From NCBI GenBank assembly GCA_021157965.1, contig JAGGVO010000040.1, forward strand, positions 1-44,863: a DNA stretch of 44,863 nt, read 5' to 3'. The DNA comes from Candidatus Neomarinimicrobiota bacterium. GTDB lineage: Bacteria; Fidelibacterota; Fidelibacteria; Fidelibacterales; Fidelibacteraceae. The notes under the pieces were generated by a model that worked only from the letters and a program-made list of their open reading frames with translations, had not been told where the DNA came from and did not search any database. Shown here one piece after another: positions 7,057 to 42,773 of this stretch (its first letter is position 1; each line of letters begins with the position of its first letter). The position numbers and the translations under genes were made by a program.

Positions 7057-7060
7057 GGTG

Positions 7061-8545
7061 ATGAAAAAATATTTGCTCTTAACCCTGCTTTTATTCTCTG
7101 TCCTCCGGGCAGTATCCTTCGAATCCTGCAACGCATTCAGGGATTCCCTCTTTAAAATCACGTCCATTCAGACAGCTACGGAACGAAATGCGGCGTTGGA
7201 TACCCTGTGGCTCCAATTAAAAGAACAGCGGCAGATTCCCTTTAAAATGGCGGATTCCGTTATATTTCTTTATCGCGGATCGGCATCTTCCGTAGCCTGG
7301 TACGGCGATTTCAACAGCTGGTCGGACGACGCATTCAATGCCACCGTGCAGAAATTAAACGGCAATATCTGGATCCTGGAAAAAACTTTTCCTTCCAATG
7401 CCCGCCTGGATTATAAAATTGTTCTGAATGGAAGCACCTGGATTCTGGATCCTGCGAATCCCTTCCGTCAAATGGGCGGATATGGGTACAATTCCGTGCT
7501 TCGCATGCCGGATTATGAATTTCCCATGGAGGTGTTAGCCCGGGAGGATACGCGAAAAGGAACTCTTTCAGACAACATTCCCATTTACAGCAACGCCCTG
7601 GCCTACAGTCTTCACTACCGGGTTTACACCCCGGCGGACTATGAAACCTTGTCCCACTTGCCTGTTTTGTATATCACAGACGGACACGAATATGCCAACA
7701 GTCTTATGGGCAGCGTTCCCACGGTTCTGGATAATCTGATTCACGACCGGAAAATCAAGCCCCTCATCGCCGTCTTTATCAGTCCGGTCACACCGGGCGG
7801 CGGTATAAACCGCCGTATGAGCGAATATAACATGAACGCAGCTTTTGCCGATTTTTTAGCGGATGAGCTGGTACCCTACATTGATTCCACATATAAAACA
7901 CAAACTGATCCGGATTCCCGGTGCCTTTTGGGGACATCCATGGGCGGGATTTGTTCCGCCTACACCGGTGCCGTGAAACCGGAAACTTTTCATTTGCTGG
8001 CCATCCAATCCCCCGCATTCTGGTACAATCCGGTAATCTACAATCTCTATTCGGATTATCCTCTTCGCCCTTTAAAGATCTGGATGTCCACAGGCACAAT
8101 TCACGACATGCAGAGCGGGGCCCTGCACATGAAAGAAATTTTCGAAAACAAGGGATACGAGTACACATACATGGAGGTTCCGGAAAGCCATTCCTGGGGA
8201 AACTGGCGCGGACAGATTGATGATATCCTCACATGGTTTTGGAAGGACTCCACACAGGTATCCATCCTGCCTGAAAAGAAGGCCCGGAGTTCGACTTCTG
8301 CCCACCCCAATCCTTTTAACGGGCAAACCACCCTGCACCTTTCTCCCCTCCCCTTTCCCCGGAAAGGACAGATACGGATTATAGATCTGGCGGGACGGGA
8401 AATTTTCAGCTCATTCCTCCAGGTTCCGGCAGGCCAGGCGGTATCAATCCCCCTTGACTTCGACCACCAGGCATCCGGCATTTACATTTATACTTTTTTA
8501 TCCTCAAATACACGGGAATCGGGAAAGCTTTTACATCTTAAATAA
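7061..8545 (+). CDS. secreted esterase, enterochelin-esterase-like alpha/beta hydrolase with sorting domain
   Basis: This 494-aa protein (from ATG 7061; a GTG at 7058 is the alternative start) has a signal peptide (MKKYLLLTLLLFSVLRAVS). An N-terminal E-set/CBM48-like beta domain follows (about 60-140, VAWYGDFNSWSDD), as in Fes/IroE-type esterases. The hydrolase domain has nucleophile Ser293 in LLGTSMGG, probable Asp349 (IHDMQSG) and His377 (PESHSWGNW). The last 80 residues start with AHPNPFNGQTTL and form a T9SS-type C-terminal domain. Fes-like enzymes cleave ester bonds in siderophores, and related secreted ones cleave feruloyl or acetyl esters on polysaccharides. No siderophore gene is nearby, so a carbohydrate or lipid ester is equally possible. 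It sits directly behind the C25 peptidase (a 4-nt gap), suggesting co-expressed extracellular hydrolases. It converges on tmk with 26 nt between and no clear terminator. Confidence 0.85.
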   Translation: MKKYLLLTLLLFSVLRAVSFESCNAFRDSLFKITSIQTATERNAALDTLWLQLKEQRQIPFKMADSVIFLYRGSASSVAWYGDFNSWSDDAFNATVQKLNGNIWILEKTFPSNARLDYKIVLNGSTWILDPANPFRQMGGYGYNSVLRMPDYEFPMEVLAREDTRKGTLSDNIPIYSNALAYSLHYRVYTPADYETLSHLPVLYITDGHEYANSLMGSVPTVLDNLIHDRKIKPLIAVFISPVTPGGGINRRMSEYNMNAAFADFLADELVPYIDSTYKTQTDPDSRCLLGTSMGGICSAYTGAVKPETFHLLAIQSPAFWYNPVIYNLYSDYPLRPLKIWMSTGTIHDMQSGALHMKEIFENKGYEYTYMEVPESHSWGNWRGQIDDILTWFWKDSTQVSILPEKKARSSTSAHPNPFNGQTTLHLSPLPFPRKGQIRIIDLAGREIFSSFLQVPAGQAVSIPLDFDHQASGIYIYTFLSSNTRESGKLLHLK

Positions 8546-34212: not shown

Positions 34213-36369
34213 TTATTTATTTTTTAATTTATTATTCTTTTTGCCGGATTCTTCGTGATCCTCATCTTTCCCTTCCACCAGATGAAAATCCACCTCCATG
34301 TGTTCCAGGGAAACCCTGGCCACCCGGACCTTTACATGATCCCCCATGCGGAAACGCCGTTTTGAACGCCGGCCCGTCAGGGTATAAGCCACAGGGTTAA
34401 ATTCCCAGTAGTCAGAAGGCAAAAATTTCCGGTGGACCAGTCCTTCCACCAGAGTCTCGGGAATTTCTACATAAAATCCGTACTGAACCACACCGGAAAT
34501 AATCCCGCTGAAAACATCTCCGAGATGTTTTTCCAAGAATTTGACCTGTTTTATCTTGTGGTACTCCCGTTCAGCATTTTGTGCCCGGATTTCACAATCG
34601 GTGGATTTTTTCGCTGCAGCATCCAGGGATTCCTTCAGGCGGTTCCGGTCTTTGATCCTCTCATTTTTCAGATACTTTCGTAAAAGCCTGTGAACGATCA
34701 AATCGGGGTACCGGCGGATGGGAGAAGTGAAGTGGGTATACTCATCAAAAGCCAAGCCAAAGTGTCCCAGCGGCTTCGTGTCGTACCGGGCTTTCATCAT
34801 GGTCCGCAGGGCAATTTTTTCCAGAAAGTAACGGGCATCCGTATCCTGTACCGCCAGCAGGGCATCCCTGAAATCTGCAGGCCGCACAGAGCGCCCCTTC
34901 ACGGCTTTTTCAAAACCAAAGTTCCTCAACAACTTGAAAAATGCCAGGGCGTCGTCCGGCTTGGGTGTTTCGTGGACACGATAAATAAAGGGCAGTGGAT
35001 CCTGTCGGCTCTGAATAAAGCGCGCCACGGTTTTATTGGCAATCAACATGCATTCTTCCACAATCCGATGGCTCCACAGGCGTTCCCGGGGGTAGATTTC
35101 CGTGGGAAAACCCGAATCATCCAGGATGTATTTCGGCTCGGGAATGTCAAAATCGATGCTTCCCGCCTGATTCCGCACATCATTGAGAATTTTAGCCAGT
35201 TTAAAAAGGGCGGATATTTCAGTGAAATACTCTCCCTTTCCCCGGTCCAGTATCTGTTGAACCTCTTCATAGGTAAAACGCCGCCTGCTGTGAATCACCG
35301 AAGGGGTTATCCGGCTTTTAATGACCGCCCCTTTGGGATTGATGGTCATCAGGGCTGAAAAACTCAGACGGTCTTCATTCGGGTTCAGGGAACACAATTC
35401 GTTGCTCAATTTCTCCGGAAGCATGGGGATCACATAGCGGGTGAAATAGACGGATGTCCCCCGCTTCAGGGCTTCTTTATCCAGTGGAGATCCTTCCGGT
35501 ACATAATGACTCACATCGGCAATGTGAACCCCAAGTTCGTAAGTGCCGTCTTTATTCACGGCAACAGAGAGAGCATCGTCAAAATCCCGGGCATCCTCAG
35601 GATCGATGGTAAAGGTGACAAGATCCCGCAAATCAGCACGGCCGTCCGGAGTGATTTTTTGAGATATGGCCTCGGCCTGTTCCAGAACCTCAGCCGGAAA
35701 ACGGTCCGGAATGCTGTACTGATTCGCCACCAGCACCGCATCAAATTCTTTTGTCTCACGGCTGCCGATCAGACGGGTGATACGCCCGTAAGGTCGTCGT
35801 GAACTATCCCGCCAATCCGTGATTTCCACCGAGATAATGCTTCCGTCATCGGGTTTATAGCCGTTGAAATCGGTGATGACTACATCCTTCCGGAGCTGTG
35901 CCGTTTCGGGAATACCCAGGGAATAACCCCGTACCTCCCGGTAAATGCAGACAAATTCATTCCGGCCCCGCTTGACAACACGACGGATAAAGCCTTCCGG
36001 ATTATCCCCTTTTTGTTTTTTAAGGATTTTTACACTGACCGTATCCCCGTGACAGGCATTGCCCAGGTCATCGGCATGAATGAAGATTTTTTTGCCGTCA
36101 GTCGTATTGACAAAGCCAAAACCTTTGGCATGGATATCCAGTACTCCCACCGTTTCAGAGGGTTCTTCATGTCCCGGCAGTCCGTAAACATTGCCCTGAT
36201 ATTGCTTAAGCCGGCCGGCCCGGGCCAGGTTTTTTACTGCATCCCGCAGCAAGGGATAATTCCGCTGGGACACATTCAAAGTAGTCCGGAGTTTTTTAAG
36301 TTTCATCCGGGTGGATGGATTCTCTTTGAAAAAAGCCATCACCCGCTGTGCATAATTGTTTTGTTTCAT
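34213..36369 (-). CDS. rnr: ribonuclease R
   Basis: This 718-aa 3'-5' exoribonuclease degrades structured RNA. It has an N-terminal RNase B/winged-helix region (residues 1-70), cold-shock/OB domains (GVLDIHAKGFGFVNTTDGKKIFI at about 73-95), and the RNB catalytic core. The core's active-site motif is DLVTFTIDPEDARDFDDALSV (Asp residues near 252-261), with HIADVSHYVPEGSPLD, HFTSPIRRYPDLIVHRLL and a C-terminal S1 domain (SGIISGVVQYGFYVEIPETLVEGLVH). A basic C-terminal tail follows. Length is typical of RNase R. It is monocistronic, with its start 82 nt from the small broken gene at 36452-36645. Confidence 0.95.
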   Translation of the reverse strand: MKQNNYAQRVMAFFKENPSTRMKLKKLRTTLNVSQRNYPLLRDAVKNLARAGRLKQYQGNVYGLPGHEEPSETVGVLDIHAKGFGFVNTTDGKKIFIHADDLGNACHGDTVSVKILKKQKGDNPEGFIRRVVKRGRNEFVCIYREVRGYSLGIPETAQLRKDVVITDFNGYKPDDGSIISVEITDWRDSSRRPYGRITRLIGSRETKEFDAVLVANQYSIPDRFPAEVLEQAEAISQKITPDGRADLRDLVTFTIDPEDARDFDDALSVAVNKDGTYELGVHIADVSHYVPEGSPLDKEALKRGTSVYFTRYVIPMLPEKLSNELCSLNPNEDRLSFSALMTINPKGAVIKSRITPSVIHSRRRFTYEEVQQILDRGKGEYFTEISALFKLAKILNDVRNQAGSIDFDIPEPKYILDDSGFPTEIYPRERLWSHRIVEECMLIANKTVARFIQSRQDPLPFIYRVHETPKPDDALAFFKLLRNFGFEKAVKGRSVRPADFRDALLAVQDTDARYFLEKIALRTMMKARYDTKPLGHFGLAFDEYTHFTSPIRRYPDLIVHRLLRKYLKNERIKDRNRLKESLDAAAKKSTDCEIRAQNAEREYHKIKQVKFLEKHLGDVFSGIISGVVQYGFYVEIPETLVEGLVHRKFLPSDYWEFNPVAYTLTGRRSKRRFRMGDHVKVRVARVSLEHMEVDFHLVEGKDEDHEESGKKNNKLKNK

Positions 36370-36691: not shown

Positions 36692-38023
36692 TCAAAAAGT
36701 CCATCCCACATGGATCTTTCCCTGATTCAGAGGTTCTTTTATATCAAATCCCAGGAGAATTTTCAACCGGGTTGTCCCGGTCGGCAACGAAAGGCTTGTC
36801 CCCACGTGGATCAGGGGCGTTGAAATTCCCTCAATAAAAGCCCAGTCGGCAAAGAGTCCTGCTCTGAGGAGCCCGTCTTCCACACCCCCTTCCAAAATAC
36901 CACCGGTGTACCAATCCACCCGGTACTGCTCAAAAAGGGCACCTCGCAGGAACATCCCCCCGCCCAGGCGGAACTGCTGATATCCGGCCGGATCCCCCTT
37001 TGAAAAAATACGACCCCCCAGAAGTTTTCCCTGAAAATACCAGGGTTTGGAATGAAAGAGAATCTCTGCCTCGTAATCCACGGGATACTGGAGACTATCC
37101 TCCCCGATCCGGACACCTCCTGTCAGTGACACGTGATACTGCCATGCCGCCCCGATCAGATCCTCCAGCCGGACATTCAGGGCGGAAATATGGCGTGTAC
37201 CGGGAATCACACCGGCGCTGTCTCCCGCTTCGGTGGTGTACACATCCTCCCGGGAAATCACCACTCCCACATCAGTTATCCTGTTTTCCCAGATGAGTTC
37301 AAACCGGCTTTCCCGGGTGACGTAGAGCGTATCCTCGTGTTCCTGTTTAAAACGAAGACCGGCGGAAAATCCTGTATTGATAAGGTAGGGCTCATACCAG
37401 TTCACGGTGACCCGGTTGGTTCTTTCTGAAGGATGATACCAGGAAAAATCCGCCCGGCGTCCCAATCCCAGAAAATTGATTAAAGCGATATCGGCCTGCC
37501 CCACAAGTCCACCGGCCCGGCTTTGATAACTGAGAAGGACATTAAAGGAAAAATCTTCCACCCTTTCTGCATAAAAACGAAGGGCAGAACCGGAAATGTC
37601 ATGCCGGTCCGCAGTATTCAGCCAGGAGCTTTCCCTGAGACGGTTCTGAGCCTTTCGAATCCGGTTACCATGGTACGGACCGGTCAGGTCATCCCGGATC
37701 AGTCGCTGTAAACGGCGCACTTCCGCCGGTGAAAATTCCCCAAAGACAACTGTATCAATGGATACCGACTCACCCGGAATCAAGCGGTAAGTGACAAATG
37801 CGGTGTCGGAGCTGTTGTGATATTCGGACAGAACCAGTTCAGCAAATGGATACCCGTTATCGGTCCATTTTACCAATACACGATCCAGGGTTGTGAGGAT
37901 ATTTTCCGGCATTATCACTCCGAGCGTGTCTGGGCCGATAGCCAGGCAAACCGACCGGCTCCCTGAAGCCATCAGGGGAGAAAAAAGCAAGATCATAAGG
38001 CAGATGTATTTACAGGTACGCAC
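36692..38023 (-). CDS. Omp85/BamA-family outer-membrane protein with POTRA domains
   Basis: This 443-aa protein starts at GTG 38023 with a GGAGG site and a signal peptide (MRTCKYICLMILLFSPLMASG). Residues about 40-150 look like one or two POTRA domains (VSIDTVVFGEFSPAEVRRL, RIRKAQNRLRESSWL). A 16-strand-type barrel follows and ends with an aromatic last strand (IHVGWTF). Near residue 350 is the loop-6 motif FRLGGGMFLRG, the Omp85 (V/L)RG(F/Y) signature. BamA-type members insert barrels into the outer membrane, and TamA types export. With fewer POTRAs than BamA (five), it is likely a specialised paralogue for the barrel encoded just upstream, with which it overlaps by 14 nt. Confidence 0.8.
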   Translation of the reverse strand: MRTCKYICLMILLFSPLMASGSRSVCLAIGPDTLGVIMPENILTTLDRVLVKWTDNGYPFAELVLSEYHNSSDTAFVTYRLIPGESVSIDTVVFGEFSPAEVRRLQRLIRDDLTGPYHGNRIRKAQNRLRESSWLNTADRHDISGSALRFYAERVEDFSFNVLLSYQSRAGGLVGQADIALINFLGLGRRADFSWYHPSERTNRVTVNWYEPYLINTGFSAGLRFKQEHEDTLYVTRESRFELIWENRITDVGVVISREDVYTTEAGDSAGVIPGTRHISALNVRLEDLIGAAWQYHVSLTGGVRIGEDSLQYPVDYEAEILFHSKPWYFQGKLLGGRIFSKGDPAGYQQFRLGGGMFLRGALFEQYRVDWYTGGILEGGVEDGLLRAGLFADWAFIEGISTPLIHVGTSLSLPTGTTRLKILLGFDIKEPLNQGKIHVGWTF

Positions 38024-41000
38024 GGGCCTCCACGCGGATGAGGGTTACAGATTGACTGTCTCCCCGTTTTCTGTACTGAAAGGTTCCATTCAGGGAGACC
38101 ATATCACTGAGCCGTCTTTCATACCGGAACATGAACTGCAGGGTATATCCGGCCGGAAGACCATCCGCCACTTCATAAGGCAGTGGCCGGTCATATTCCG
38201 TACTCACCGAGATCAGATTAAATCGGCCATTTACAAATTCTCCGGGGATCCGGCTCCAGGTTCCGCTGATTTCCCCTTCAAGTCGGCGGGTGGAAAAATC
38301 CTCCGTGAGAAAGGTGCTGGCAATGGCAGAAAAGGCGGCGGAAATGCCCAGGTCCAGGGACTGTCCGGGTGTCCGATGGAATGCTGCCTGAATACCCCTC
38401 CGGTTATTTTTCACGGAATAGGATCCCAGGGGAAAGCGTTCACGGCGGTCCCGGCCCAGGTTAAGTGTATATTCCTGATATCCCTTCTCTCCCCGGCGCC
38501 GCCATATCATTTCTCCTTTGTCCTTCCCTGACAGACTTTCACTGTGAAGATCCCGGGTGTTCTGGGTGCGGAAATGGTTCGTTGCCAGACGAAGGGACCG
38601 GCCCTGGTCGGGCGATGTAAGGGTCAGGTCGTTCCGGGCCCGGATATTTGCCAGAAGGATGTTTTTCCGGGGCCGGGTCAGGGAAAGAGATTGATAGACT
38701 ATCAAATCATCACTCCTGTATTCCAGATCTCCGTTGAACTGGTAACGGAGGGAAATCCGGCCGAACCGGTGCTGCCAGCGTGTAGTGAAAGCACTGGAAT
38801 GAATCACCTGATCCAGGCGGTCATTCGTCTGTTCGCGGCGGAGAACGTAATTCCCCAGGAGGTCGGGGACATACTCATTGTAAACTTCATCCCATCGGTA
38901 TTGTCCCATGCCGTCGGCAACCCGGATAAAGAGTGCCTCCCGGCGATATTCGGACGTCCGGTTAATCCGGGTAGTTAACTGACCGGAAAGATTAATGGAC
39001 GGTACATTCCACTGAAGCCGGTTGCTGGTAAGCATGGTAAAGCTCTTTTGAGTATCCCGCCGGTCCAGACGGCCGGTCAAATCTCCCTGCCAACGGATGT
39101 AATCCCTGAAATCAAAACGCCCTTTCAGTTCCAAATCGTGTTTTTGTGAATAGCGGTCAAACTGTGAACCGCTCCATTCATAATCTTCCCGGTAGCGGTA
39201 TTCAACACCCATGTTTTCCTTAAATCGGATTCCTCCCCGTAAAATATCATTCCGCTCGGCATAGGCACGCCCCAGGGGTTCAAACAAAGTTCTTTTCCAT
39301 CCGGCATACAGGGCGTGGATTTTCCCTGACACTCCTGCCTGATAATAGGGCAACCAGTGGGAATTTCTCAGGCGAAACCCTTCCCATGAAAGGGCGACCT
39401 TTTTTCCTACAGAACCGGAAAAAGAGAAACGGTGGCGTAGAGAATCGGGACGGATGCCGGCACTCTGCCAGGTCAGGATCGTGTGAAATTTGTCTGAATC
39501 ATACACCAGGGCATTCCGGATATTTATACGAAGGGTATCCCCGGGATGAAAACCCATGTCCCGGGAAAGAGAGACGGATTCGGGCGCTTCGTAGCTGATA
39601 AAATGTTCCGAGCGATTCCAGCCGTCGCTTTGAAACGTAAAACGTGATATCGGCAGCTCAGCCTGCCAGTTCCCTCCAATGCCGTTGTACATAGTGCCTG
39701 TGCCGAATCCCCTTTCAAATTGTGAGAGTGTAACATGTCCCGACACCATACCCTTCAGGAGTTCCCATCGGAAATCCCCGCCCAAATGGGAGAGTGTTTC
39801 GGGATAAACTACAGGCCTTCGGGGGAAATACTGGGATAAAGGATCCTCCGGAGCATATTCATAATAAGGCAGTCCGTCAGCATCATAGCGCCGGATATAT
39901 CCACCGTTTTGATTTTCCCGGAAAAACCGTACCCGGTGCGTGCCCTGTTTCTCCCCGGCATAGAGCCAGAAACCCTCATCCGACCAGACATAACTGCCGG
40001 TCGTATCTGCCTGAGCGGTGGAAAGAAAATCACCTTCCATGAGGGCAGATAGTGAATCAGAACTGAGATTGGCCATGCTTTCATCCAGGGGACGGGAACT
40101 GTCATCTGATTCCCGGAGGGCGTAAAGATGCACCCTCCACCGGTTTCCGGTATATCCCACACGTCCCCCGGTACTCAGGCGCGGAAACCATTCATTCCGG
40201 TACCGGTATTCCACAAACACGCGGTCCTCTTTCGACAAAAGGTATCCGGTGGAAAATGTAAGCTCGGCGGCGGCATAATCCACCAGATACCGGGAAGATT
40301 CCAAGCGAATCCCGTTCAGAAAAACCCGTTCCGATCCGGGGACAATCATCACAGAAGAAAGTGAGCCTGAAAGAAGGCGGTAAGGGCCCTGATCCCCTTC
40401 ACGGACAGTTATTTCCCGGCGGATAAACCTGCCGGATGGACTCCCGGCAAATCCTTCCCACGACAGGGCTCCGTGGGATTCGGGTGATGATGCAGCGGTA
40501 ACACCCGTCAGGTGACCGGAATAGCGGCTGAAAGGGCTCCAGTCCGTACCGATTCGCAGATCCCCCAAACGACCCTTTCCCCCCGGGGTTTCCAGTTCCA
40601 GATAAATCTGATCCAGTTCCTCAAGACTTTGGGACGACATGGCGGCTTCAAAGGGTGTTTCATGATCCGAGATCACACCGCTCAACATCACATTCGGTAG
40701 AAGTTCACCCCGGATCTGCAAATCCATCCCGCCTGATACACTGCTTTGTCCGTTGGTACTCACCTGCACAGAGCGGAAAAGGGTCCCCCGGGTTCGGACA
40801 CCGGATGATGGGACGGCCGACCGGTCTGACGTTTGAGGTCTGTTTTTTTCATCAGGAAAGAGATCGGGCAAATAGCGAACACCGGACGAATACCGGAGGG
40901 GCAAAGACCAATCAGGTGTTGAATAGAAAATCTTCACTGTGTCGGGTGCATCGGGATTATCCAAAACCACCCAGCGGCCTTCCACGGGATCCAGAGCCCA

Positions 41001-41168
41001 ACGGAGAGTGTCGGCAGGATTTTCCCAGCGAATGGAATCAAGAGTCACCAAAGGATGGGAAAGAGAAAAAACCGTTTGCCCCGGCCGGACAATAAAATCC
41101 TCCTGATAGGAAACGGCACATGTCAGTGTGACGGCTAAAAGAAGAGTTGTAAATATGCGGAAAATCAC
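38010..41168 (-). CDS. very large outer-membrane beta-barrel protein of FCB type
   Basis: A 1052-aa protein. Start GTG 41168 is chosen because it gives a signal peptide (VIFRIFTTLLLAVTLTCAVS) and a GTGA overlap with the previous gene's stop; a longer frame to 41264 is less likely. Residues about 120-210 contain a stretch seen in large FCB outer-membrane proteins: TRGTLFRSVQVSTNGQSSVS, then DLQIRGELLPNVMLSGVISD, then LEELDQIYLELETPGGKGRLGDLRIG (shown split). The remainder is alternating aromatic beta strands with charged turns and ends in a barrel-like strand (IRVEARAYL). No TonB box or plug motif was seen. Function is not recognised. It is placed between a secreted propeller-like protein and an Omp85 insertase, so a surface complex or secretin-like pore is possible. 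Confidence 0.7.
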   Translation of the reverse strand: MIFRIFTTLLLAVTLTCAVSYQEDFIVRPGQTVFSLSHPLVTLDSIRWENPADTLRWALDPVEGRWVVLDNPDAPDTVKIFYSTPDWSLPLRYSSGVRYLPDLFPDEKNRPQTSDRSAVPSSGVRTRGTLFRSVQVSTNGQSSVSGGMDLQIRGELLPNVMLSGVISDHETPFEAAMSSQSLEELDQIYLELETPGGKGRLGDLRIGTDWSPFSRYSGHLTGVTAASSPESHGALSWEGFAGSPSGRFIRREITVREGDQGPYRLLSGSLSSVMIVPGSERVFLNGIRLESSRYLVDYAAAELTFSTGYLLSKEDRVFVEYRYRNEWFPRLSTGGRVGYTGNRWRVHLYALRESDDSSRPLDESMANLSSDSLSALMEGDFLSTAQADTTGSYVWSDEGFWLYAGEKQGTHRVRFFRENQNGGYIRRYDADGLPYYEYAPEDPLSQYFPRRPVVYPETLSHLGGDFRWELLKGMVSGHVTLSQFERGFGTGTMYNGIGGNWQAELPISRFTFQSDGWNRSEHFISYEAPESVSLSRDMGFHPGDTLRINIRNALVYDSDKFHTILTWQSAGIRPDSLRHRFSFSGSVGKKVALSWEGFRLRNSHWLPYYQAGVSGKIHALYAGWKRTLFEPLGRAYAERNDILRGGIRFKENMGVEYRYREDYEWSGSQFDRYSQKHDLELKGRFDFRDYIRWQGDLTGRLDRRDTQKSFTMLTSNRLQWNVPSINLSGQLTTRINRTSEYRREALFIRVADGMGQYRWDEVYNEYVPDLLGNYVLRREQTNDRLDQVIHSSAFTTRWQHRFGRISLRYQFNGDLEYRSDDLIVYQSLSLTRPRKNILLANIRARNDLTLTSPDQGRSLRLATNHFRTQNTRDLHSESLSGKDKGEMIWRRRGEKGYQEYTLNLGRDRRERFPLGSYSVKNNRRGIQAAFHRTPGQSLDLGISAAFSAIASTFLTEDFSTRRLEGEISGTWSRIPGEFVNGRFNLISVSTEYDRPLPYEVADGLPAGYTLQFMFRYERRLSDMVSLNGTFQYRKRGDSQSVTLIRVEARAYL

Positions 41169-41968
41169 GGTGTGGTGGCCCCTTTGGGCAGATGGGGGTA
41201 AAATCCTCCGGGAATAGGCGTTCCGTCCGGACGTACCCGCCGGTCTTTCCAGATTCTCAGACAAGGTTTATCATCGATTTTTTCAGGAGGATTCCCCGGT
41301 ATCAGCATCCATGTGCCTCCCGGACCGGAGATAAAAAGAAAGTCCTTCCATCCACCTGCAAGATGGCGGATATCCAGTGAATCGGGTATATGAATCTTAT
41401 GAAGAAGCCGTCCCTGAGTATCGGTAATCCAGGCAAGGGATTCTGCCGGAGAAAGACAATAGACCCTGTTTCCGTCACCCATGAGGGACAAATCGGGCGG
41501 TATCACGGCAAAATCCTGTCCGGTGCCCCAGGGGACGGGTGTAGTGAATCCCGGACTAAACTGCCAGATTTTTTGATTCAGAGCATCGGCTAAAAGCCAT
41601 CGGCCGTCGGATAAAATGAGAAAGGCCATGGGATCCTCAATCCGGGAAGGAAGAGAGAGGGAACCAAGATAATTCAGGGCGGCATCAAATTCCAGGAAGG
41701 ATTTACCGGATCTATCCAGCACCCATACGGACGAGGGGAACTGAAGCTGAAGGCCCGCCGGTTCCTGCAGGCGGGACATAAGTGCCGGACCATCCCCCCG
41801 TTTCAGCGTTCCTTCGGGAGCATGACGGATGATAACACCTTCCCGGACAGAAAGCATGTACAGACGGTTCATGGGGTCGATTTCGGCATAATCATAACTT
41901 ATGCCCGGTAAAACGGCGGGGATAAAAAAAAGAAAAAAGGCAAATAGACAGGACTGTATTCTGGACAT
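41165..41968 (-). CDS. secreted beta-propeller-like protein
   Basis: This 267-aa protein is read from ATG 41968, two bases after the end of the previous gene's stop region, with an AGGTG site. A longer frame to 42094 overlaps that gene and lacks a signal at its start. MSRIQSCLFAFFLFFIPAVLPG is a signal peptide. The rest has repeating blade-like segments (SVWVLDRSGKSFLEFDAALN, DGRWLLADALNQKIWQFSPG, NRVYCLSPAESLAWITDTQG), like NHL or six-bladed propellers. It has no catalytic motif that I recognise, so a binding or scaffold role in the envelope is likely. It overlaps the large-barrel gene by 4 nt (GTGA). Confidence 0.65.
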   Translation of the reverse strand: MSRIQSCLFAFFLFFIPAVLPGISYDYAEIDPMNRLYMLSVREGVIIRHAPEGTLKRGDGPALMSRLQEPAGLQLQFPSSVWVLDRSGKSFLEFDAALNYLGSLSLPSRIEDPMAFLILSDGRWLLADALNQKIWQFSPGFTTPVPWGTGQDFAVIPPDLSLMGDGNRVYCLSPAESLAWITDTQGRLLHKIHIPDSLDIRHLAGGWKDFLFISGPGGTWMLIPGNPPEKIDDKPCLRIWKDRRVRPDGTPIPGGFYPHLPKGATTP

Positions 41969-41972
41969 ACAC

Positions 41973-42773
41973 CTAATACTTTTTACCACAGAAGGGACAA
42001 AAAAGGTGTCCGGTTGTTCTGGGTGCACCACAATAGCCGCAAAAACGCATGGCATGGGATTCCCTTTCCGTGTCGTCATGGACAGGCCGGACAACCCGCC
42101 GGATCAGAAGGGCCAGAATCAGCATGAGGATAAAGAGGCCGATGCCGATTCGCCGGACGGCGGGTGAAAGTTGACGCCGGATGGGTTCCGGCGGTTCCAT
42201 GGTTCCCGGAGCCGTCAGCTGTCCGCTGGGATTGGTGTAACGAAGAGAAACCATAAAGGGTTCCTCCGGGCGAATCCCGGCAAATTTTGTGATGCTGTAA
42301 ACCAACCCACTCCTGTCCTTCACTTCCCGGGTAAATGCCGTGGCATCCATAAAATCAAAATCACGGGCTGCCGAAGGTTTCTGAATCCGGATGAAAAGAG
42401 TATCTACAGCTAAATTTGAGTAGAAAAAATAATCATAGGACCGGTAGGATGTATCGGGAAAAATATCGTAATAGGTCATGGTGAAATGATCCCCCCGGGG
42501 AGTAAAACGGATCATGTTCATGGCATCGACGGTGATGATCTTCTGGAAATCAAGGTAACCTTCACGAATCCGCACATGTTTGACAGATTCGGGGATGACA
42601 AAAACAACAGGTGCCGCGCTATCCATGGACATTTCCATTATCACCAACATGGCTGGCTGGTCATAATCGGGCCAGAGATCCACCCTGGCTTCCGTGAAAC
42701 GGGCAGCAGAGAGTGATTCCGCACCGGTAAACAGAAAAAAAAGACAGGCCGAAAAAAGAATCCGCAACTTCAT
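41973..42773 (-). CDS. membrane-anchored protein with periplasmic domain and cytoplasmic zinc ribbon
   Basis: This 266-aa protein has a signal peptide (MKLRILFSACLFFLFTGAES), a beta-rich periplasmic domain (25-200), one transmembrane helix (about 209-226) and a C-terminal zinc ribbon: CGYC (245-248) and CPFCG (259-263). A zinc ribbon on the cytoplasmic side of a periplasmic domain is uncommon and suggests signalling or assembly across the inner membrane. The first gene of a four-gene operon, it is divergent from the flavodoxin gene. The stop (41973-41975) lies 4 nt before the start of the propeller gene. No family name is known to me. Confidence 0.65.
   Translation of the reverse strand: MKLRILFSACLFFLFTGAESLSAARFTEARVDLWPDYDQPAMLVIMEMSMDSAAPVVFVIPESVKHVRIREGYLDFQKIITVDAMNMIRFTPRGDHFTMTYYDIFPDTSYRSYDYFFYSNLAVDTLFIRIQKPSAARDFDFMDATAFTREVKDRSGLVYSITKFAGIRPEEPFMVSLRYTNPSGQLTAPGTMEPPEPIRRQLSPAVRRIGIGLFILMLILALLIRRVVRPVHDDTERESHAMRFCGYCGAPRTTGHLFCPFCGKKY

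Follow-up and report, generated by a model that had tools for sequence, protein, structure and literature searches.

A predicted giant outer-membrane barrel and a co-occurring Omp85-family protein in Neomarinimicrobiota and Bacteroidota

Results and Discussion

The window analysed here comprises positions 1 to 44,863 of contig JAGGVO010000040.1 (assembly GCA_021157965.1), part of a 2.3 Mb genome of Candidatus Neomarinimicrobiota. The open reading frames called in the window include four co-directional genes on the minus strand, g1, g2, g3 and g4. g1 (41973..42773, ATG start) encodes a predicted type I inner-membrane protein of 266 aa. It is followed by g2 (41165..41968, ATG start), which encodes a secreted six-bladed NHL-type β-propeller of 267 aa that is degenerate in the genus of the window. 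g3 (38010..41168, GTG start) encodes a predicted giant outer-membrane β-barrel of 1052 aa, and g4 (36692..38023, GTG start) an Omp85-family protein of 443 aa. The stop codon of g1 and the start codon of g2 are separated by a 4-nt gap, g2 and g3 overlap by 4 nt (GTGA), and g3 and g4 overlap by 14 nt. Each of the four products begins with a hydrophobic segment of the signal-peptide type. The close linkage and the signal peptides were both claimed in a preliminary description of this DNA, and both are confirmed. A divergent flavodoxin gene lies upstream of the set. Downstream of g4 and outside the module is a gene for RNase R (34213..36369, minus strand; TIGR02063, 733 bits). Elsewhere in the window, the ORF at 7058-8545 has a C-terminal sorting domain of T9SS type A (8303-8530).

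A profile search (E<1e-30) found g3 as a single-copy gene in 76 of 98 high-completeness Neomarinimicrobiota genomes. At least 577 relatives of g3 were obtained from a scan of named genomes, and 80 of these were kept. They belong to Neomarinimicrobiota, KSB1, Calditrichota, Zixibacteria, LCP-89, Ignavibacteria, Chlorobiota and Bacteroidota. About 46 loci, from Neomarinimicrobiota, KSB1, Calditrichota, Zixibacteria and further groups, keep the order g2-g3-g4, which answers positively the check for the same gene order in related genomes. Outside Bacteroidota and Ignavibacteria, g2 immediately precedes g3 in 46 of the 47 loci with g2, and g4 immediately follows g3 in 45 of the 46 with g4. Since the arrangement is conserved across loci, it is not a chance product of ORF calling. 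A gene of the RNase R family is found downstream of g4 in 17 loci. The RNase R gene (rnr) and other neighbours such as lgt, lepA and DUF4837 are of the housekeeping type, and we did not count them among the functional parts for this reason. The products of g2, g3 and g4 are almost never lipoproteins. In seven loci from Ignavibacteria/Chlorobiota-type genomes, g3 ends a cluster of TolC, HlyD, ABC and multiple MacB-permease genes. Four Neomarinimicrobiota families (f20, f21, f22 and f7, the last with genomes of 0.8-1.0 Mb) have lost g3 and kept SprA, a protein of the T9SS discussed below.

The g1 protein consists of the signal peptide, a periplasmic β domain of about 160 aa, one transmembrane helix and a C-terminal cytoplasmic zinc ribbon. 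The AlphaFold2 model (pLDDT 80) shows an all-β ectodomain and places the helix at residues 204-227 (42093..42164, minus strand), where a second hydrophobic segment is found at about residues 209-227. The ribbon (residues 244-263; 41985..42044, minus strand) gave weak Zn-ribbon matches, under the gathering score. The four cysteines of its CxxCG...CxxCG pattern are invariant in 11 of 11 aligned sequences and bear out the zinc ribbon proposed earlier. The fold of the ectodomain resembles the N-terminal β-saddle of M1 aminopeptidases and Ost1, and g1 has no catalytic domain. g1 was found in 10 loci only, all from Neomarinimicrobiota, and we therefore rejected it as a fixed subunit; outside the genus of the window, lgt is usually located between g1 and g2. 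g1 is a loose neighbour of the module and may be co-regulated only. The proposed four-gene unit has a firm g2-g3-g4 core and a looser g1, which is not obligatory.

The window copy of g2 has no direct match in Pfam. Among its family members, 28 of 46 match PF01436 (NHL), and a profile of the family finds NHL propellers of known structure in the PDB, with E values down to 6e-56. These profile matches identify g2 as a degenerate NHL β-propeller. The NHL assignment holds for the family only, and the propeller suggested in the preliminary description is upheld by this route, not from the window copy alone.

Neither the g3 protein nor its family has a sequence relative in Pfam, NCBIfam or the PDB. 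Weak, scattered matches are all that Pfam gave on 29 family members, and an hmmscan of g3 against NCBIfam returned 0 families. The AlphaFold2 model of g3 (82 sequences) has a pLDDT of 85.8 and a pTM of 0.74. DSSP assigns 38-40 long strands past residue 120, and 36 strands show a transmembrane-like alternation, as counted in the predicted model. This confident model supports the earlier claim of a giant outer-membrane barrel, with a predicted size of roughly 36-40 strands. A terminal phenylalanine is the usual β-signal of outer-membrane proteins, and a C-terminal Phe is present in 74 of the 82 members of the g3 family.

The best matches of the g3 model in the PDB, as found by Foldseek, are the SprA structures 8gl8_A (E 4.8e-9) and 8gl6_A (E 7.7e-9). 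The TM-scores with SprA are low (TMq 0.25), other large outer-membrane barrels score nearly as well, and LptD is among the fold matches. Because of these low TM-scores, we limit the claim of homology between g3 and SprA to one domain. It spans residues 272-354 of g3 (40107..40355, minus strand) and comprises the motif GSE..V..NG..L...Y.(V/I)DY with the first strands that follow. Profile-profile alignment of g3 with SprA gave an E value of 5e-10 (prob 96.6) over 85 columns. In some 55 Neomarinimicrobiota genomes, the g3 profile also has SprA as its second match, in every case near model columns 278-358. By alignment, then, g3 and SprA have one specific domain of about 85 residues in common. Six ORFs in other genomes, each some 1030-1043 aa long, align with the g3 profile over columns ~193-316 only and possibly represent a second barrel family related to g3.

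SprA is a 36-strand barrel (PMC10994853). Like the predicted g3 barrel, this T9SS translocon (SprA/Sov; PDB IDs: 6H3J, 8GL6, 8GL8) is a giant single-chain outer-membrane barrel, and the common domain of about 85 residues stands just before the barrel strands. At 1052 aa, g3 has half the length of the SprA of the same genome (2041 aa). Unlike SprA, it is a separate gene without a TIGR04189 match, is paired with an Omp85 protein and is absent from many T9SS genomes. The 2041-aa protein, on contig C41, is the sole match to TIGR04189 in the genome. The presence of this separate SprA, to which only one domain aligns, rules out g3 as SprA itself. LptD (LptD_2, PF19838) is likewise a large outer-membrane barrel. 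Unlike LptD, g3 matches neither PF19838 nor PF04453; the PF04453 search of the genome was uninformative, since it also missed a Bacteroides control. Replacement of LptD by g3 is excluded because the same genome has a distinct LptD_2 protein, also on C41 (E 1.9e-94).

The window copy of g4 matches TIGR03303, the BamA model, with an E value of 1.8e-7 over aa 49-233; the score is 30 bits, compared with an equivalog cut-off of 297 bits. This divergent copy is below Pfam significance and is missed by the PF01103 search. Within the g4 family, PF01103 is found in 29 of 40 members and POTRA in 13 of 40. The g4 profile matches BamA and TamA structures in the PDB with E values down to 2e-35, the best PDB sequence match being 9ccg_A. 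g4 has about one POTRA and a barrel in the genus of the window, and more POTRAs in relatives. Omp85 proteins have a conserved RG(F/Y) motif in loop L6 (PMC12611786). Judged by sequence, its equivalent in g4 is the LRG at residues 359-361 (36941..36949, minus strand), of which R360 and G361 are conserved in 40 relatives. The TIGR03303, PF01103, POTRA and structure-profile matches all agree with the Omp85 identity first assigned to g4.

In phylogenetic trees, the Bacteroidota orthologs of g4 group with the g4 proteins of the operons and are separated from BamA, from the TamA of E. coli and from other Omp85 proteins. The support for this subgroup is 0.999 in a smaller set (FastTree) and 61 in a larger one (UFBoot). 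With the g4 profile, E. coli TamA scores 55.9 bits and E. coli BamA 102 bits; the Bacteroidota orthologs score 175-411 bits, and one divergent member 115. The scores are bimodal, with at least 141 bits for orthologs versus at most 90 for the best match in genomes without g3. g4 as BamA or TamA was rejected on the basis of the score gap and the tree, in which the bootstrap is modest. The sequence comparisons thus indicate that g4 is a genuine Omp85 protein forming its own subgroup. The preliminary description had named a mapping of the two proteins to known families as an argument against its reading. The Omp85 protein does belong to a known superfamily, in its own subgroup, and the barrel belongs to none. 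A separate BamA-like protein is encoded in the genome (contig C23). In all, the genome has at least five Omp85-family proteins besides g4, on contigs C23, C12, C47, C57 and C55, and these include ORFs of 1055 and 449 aa whose type is unclear.

TamA is, like g4, an Omp85 protein with POTRA domains and a barrel. Unlike TamA, g4 co-occurs with g3 as a partner, and E. coli TamA groups elsewhere in the tree. No TamB-sized gene (>1200 aa) lies beside g4 in the operon loci and six Flavobacteriia regions. The BAM complex of Bacteroidota (BamA-BamD-BamG-BamH-BamM-BamP) resembles the module in that an Omp85 protein is combined with extra, phylum-specific parts; its described subunits include no giant barrel, NHL propeller or second Omp85 protein (PMC12611786). 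In two-partner secretion (TpsB/TpsA), an Omp85 protein is coupled to one large exported partner, as proposed for g4-g3. Unlike TpsA, a secreted β-helix, g3 is modelled as an outer-membrane barrel, and its family has the C-terminal Phe β-signal.

An ortholog of g4 appears to have been described before under another name. Fjoh_0402 of Flavobacterium johnsoniae was reported as an unexpected TamA homolog with three POTRA domains, an SPI signal peptide and no adjacent tamB, and homologs were found in 11 of the Bacteroidota species surveyed there (PMC12045153). The gene could be deleted without a growth defect, and the protein was detected only in TamL-depleted membranes (PMC12045153). Fjoh_0403-0405 form a major SusC-SusD-SusE complex (PMC12611786). 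In five of six Flavobacteriia-type genomes, g4 is located between rpsL and genes for a SusC-like protein of ~1040 aa and a SusD-like protein of ~480 aa (SusC, SusD and rpsL were named by size and N-terminal sequence). In the sixth, rpsL adjoins g4 and there is no SusCD. As the rpsL/g4/SusC/SusD synteny in Flavobacteriia relatives matches the numbering of Fjoh_0402-0405, Fjoh_0402 is very probably the g4 ortholog and not a member of the TamA family. The absence of a growth defect on deletion of this likely g4 means that the module is not essential in F. johnsoniae.

In Bacteroidota, g3 is an isolated gene, unlinked from g4. Searches with the g4 profile located the g4 ortholog at other sites in genomes of Flavobacterium, Pedobacter and Stygiobacter, with scores well in excess of those of BamA from these genomes. 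Among 118 Bacteroidota genomes (Ignavibacteria included), g3 and g4 are both present in 74 and both absent from 42; none has g4 only and 2 have g3 only. The latter two have a divergent g3 and weak, divergent Omp85/g4-like matches. Fisher's exact test for the co-occurrence gives p 5e-30 with genomes counted without regard to phylogeny, and the losses in Bacteroidota may be few clade-level events. Independence of the genes in relatives, which would speak against a machine, is thus found at the level of linkage in Bacteroidota, and g3 and g4 still co-occur there. This near-perfect co-occurrence even where the genes are unlinked supports the dedicated pairing of barrel and Omp85 protein suggested earlier. 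As they are present or absent together across the superphylum, g3 and g4 look like one uncharacterised envelope machine. The module matches no named secretion system, in agreement with the preliminary description. The trans-envelope machine proposed there is not supported in that form, as the analysis revealed neither an energy source nor a cargo nor a component that spans the periplasm.

Taken together, g4 is probably an Omp85 partner dedicated to g3, which would be an SprA-like outer-membrane channel, with g2 as a close accessory and g1 as a loose neighbour. This reading builds on the observed gene order, the families, the predicted fold and the co-occurrence; the fold, co-occurrence and operon evidence are mutually independent. 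Because cells have both proteins or neither, g4 would most likely help to fold and insert g3, or remain bound to it, or both. g3 would act as a large channel in the outer membrane, gated like SprA. The g2 propeller, exported to the periplasm or the surface, would be a third component, an accessory whose gene is tightly linked in groups other than Bacteroidota, and would dock on or near the g3 channel. We infer the physical interaction between g3 and g4, the direction of transport, the cargo and the role of g4 as an assembly factor or a stable partner.

The distribution of g3 is nested inside that of the T9SS. Almost all Neomarinimicrobiota genomes have SprA (97 of 98), and it occurs in 91 of 118 Bacteroidota genomes; all 76 Bacteroidota genomes with g3 carry it, and all 27 that lack it are also without g3. 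The module could then be an accessory of the T9SS, either another SprA-type exit channel, of smaller size, that serves part of the cargo, or an aid in building the T9SS. The domain and fold in common between g3 and SprA would fit such a role, as would the more than 50 matches to T9SS C-terminal signals in the source genome, which has its own SprA. We nevertheless consider it unlikely. SprA is kept without g3 in 15 Bacteroidota and about 20 Neomarinimicrobiota genomes, so g3 is not needed for the T9SS. The operon neighbourhoods that were examined contain no recognisable T9SS gene, and the nesting may reflect common ancestry followed by loss in host-associated or streamlined lineages.

Export of lipids or lipoproteins to the cell surface by g3-g4, perhaps with g2, would be analogous to LptD or TAM and seems less likely still. 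LptD is among the fold matches of g3, several operons of Neomarinimicrobiota have lgt between g1 and g2, and the TolC-HlyD-ABC-MacB cluster precedes g3 in Ignavibacteria. Against this, the genome has its separate LptD_2, and the operon contains no gene recognisable as a TamB-like partner. The neighbours lgt, lepA and rnr have housekeeping functions, and lipoproteins are almost never found among g2, g3 and g4. The housekeeping nature of rnr, lepA, lgt and DUF4837 could also mean that the locus is only a loose neighbourhood, in which g3 is an ordinary BAM-assembled outer-membrane protein and g4 a generic paralog of TamA or BamA; the likely F. johnsoniae g4 was indeed called TamA (PMC12045153). 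The strict co-occurrence of g3 and g4, though unlinked in Bacteroidota, makes this the least credible of the readings. Moreover, the Bacteroidota g4 scores above E. coli TamA and BamA with the g4 profile and groups with neither.

Conclusion

Omp85 proteins, giant barrels and NHL propellers are known kinds of protein; in the open-access literature, we found no description of their combination or of the g3 family. We tentatively suggest a broader interpretation of the dedicated g3-g4 pair, in which g2-g3-g4 may be a hitherto undescribed system for transport across the outer membrane in the FCB superphylum, apart from the T9SS, with a 36-40-strand channel that equals or exceeds SprA in size and is built only by its own Omp85 insertase. 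If this is true, g4 would exemplify a bacterial barrel-assembly factor dedicated to one client, and the 'TamA' of F. johnsoniae would be such a factor. This would re-interpret a protein recently published as an unexpected TamA outside Proteobacteria. g3 stands for a superphylum-wide family of predicted giant outer-membrane proteins without a Pfam or NCBIfam name or a sequence relative in the PDB, and would add a second SprA-like giant barrel to T9SS-bearing bacteria. The strict pairing of g3 with one Omp85 subfamily raises the question of whether an Omp85 protein can be devoted to a single client.
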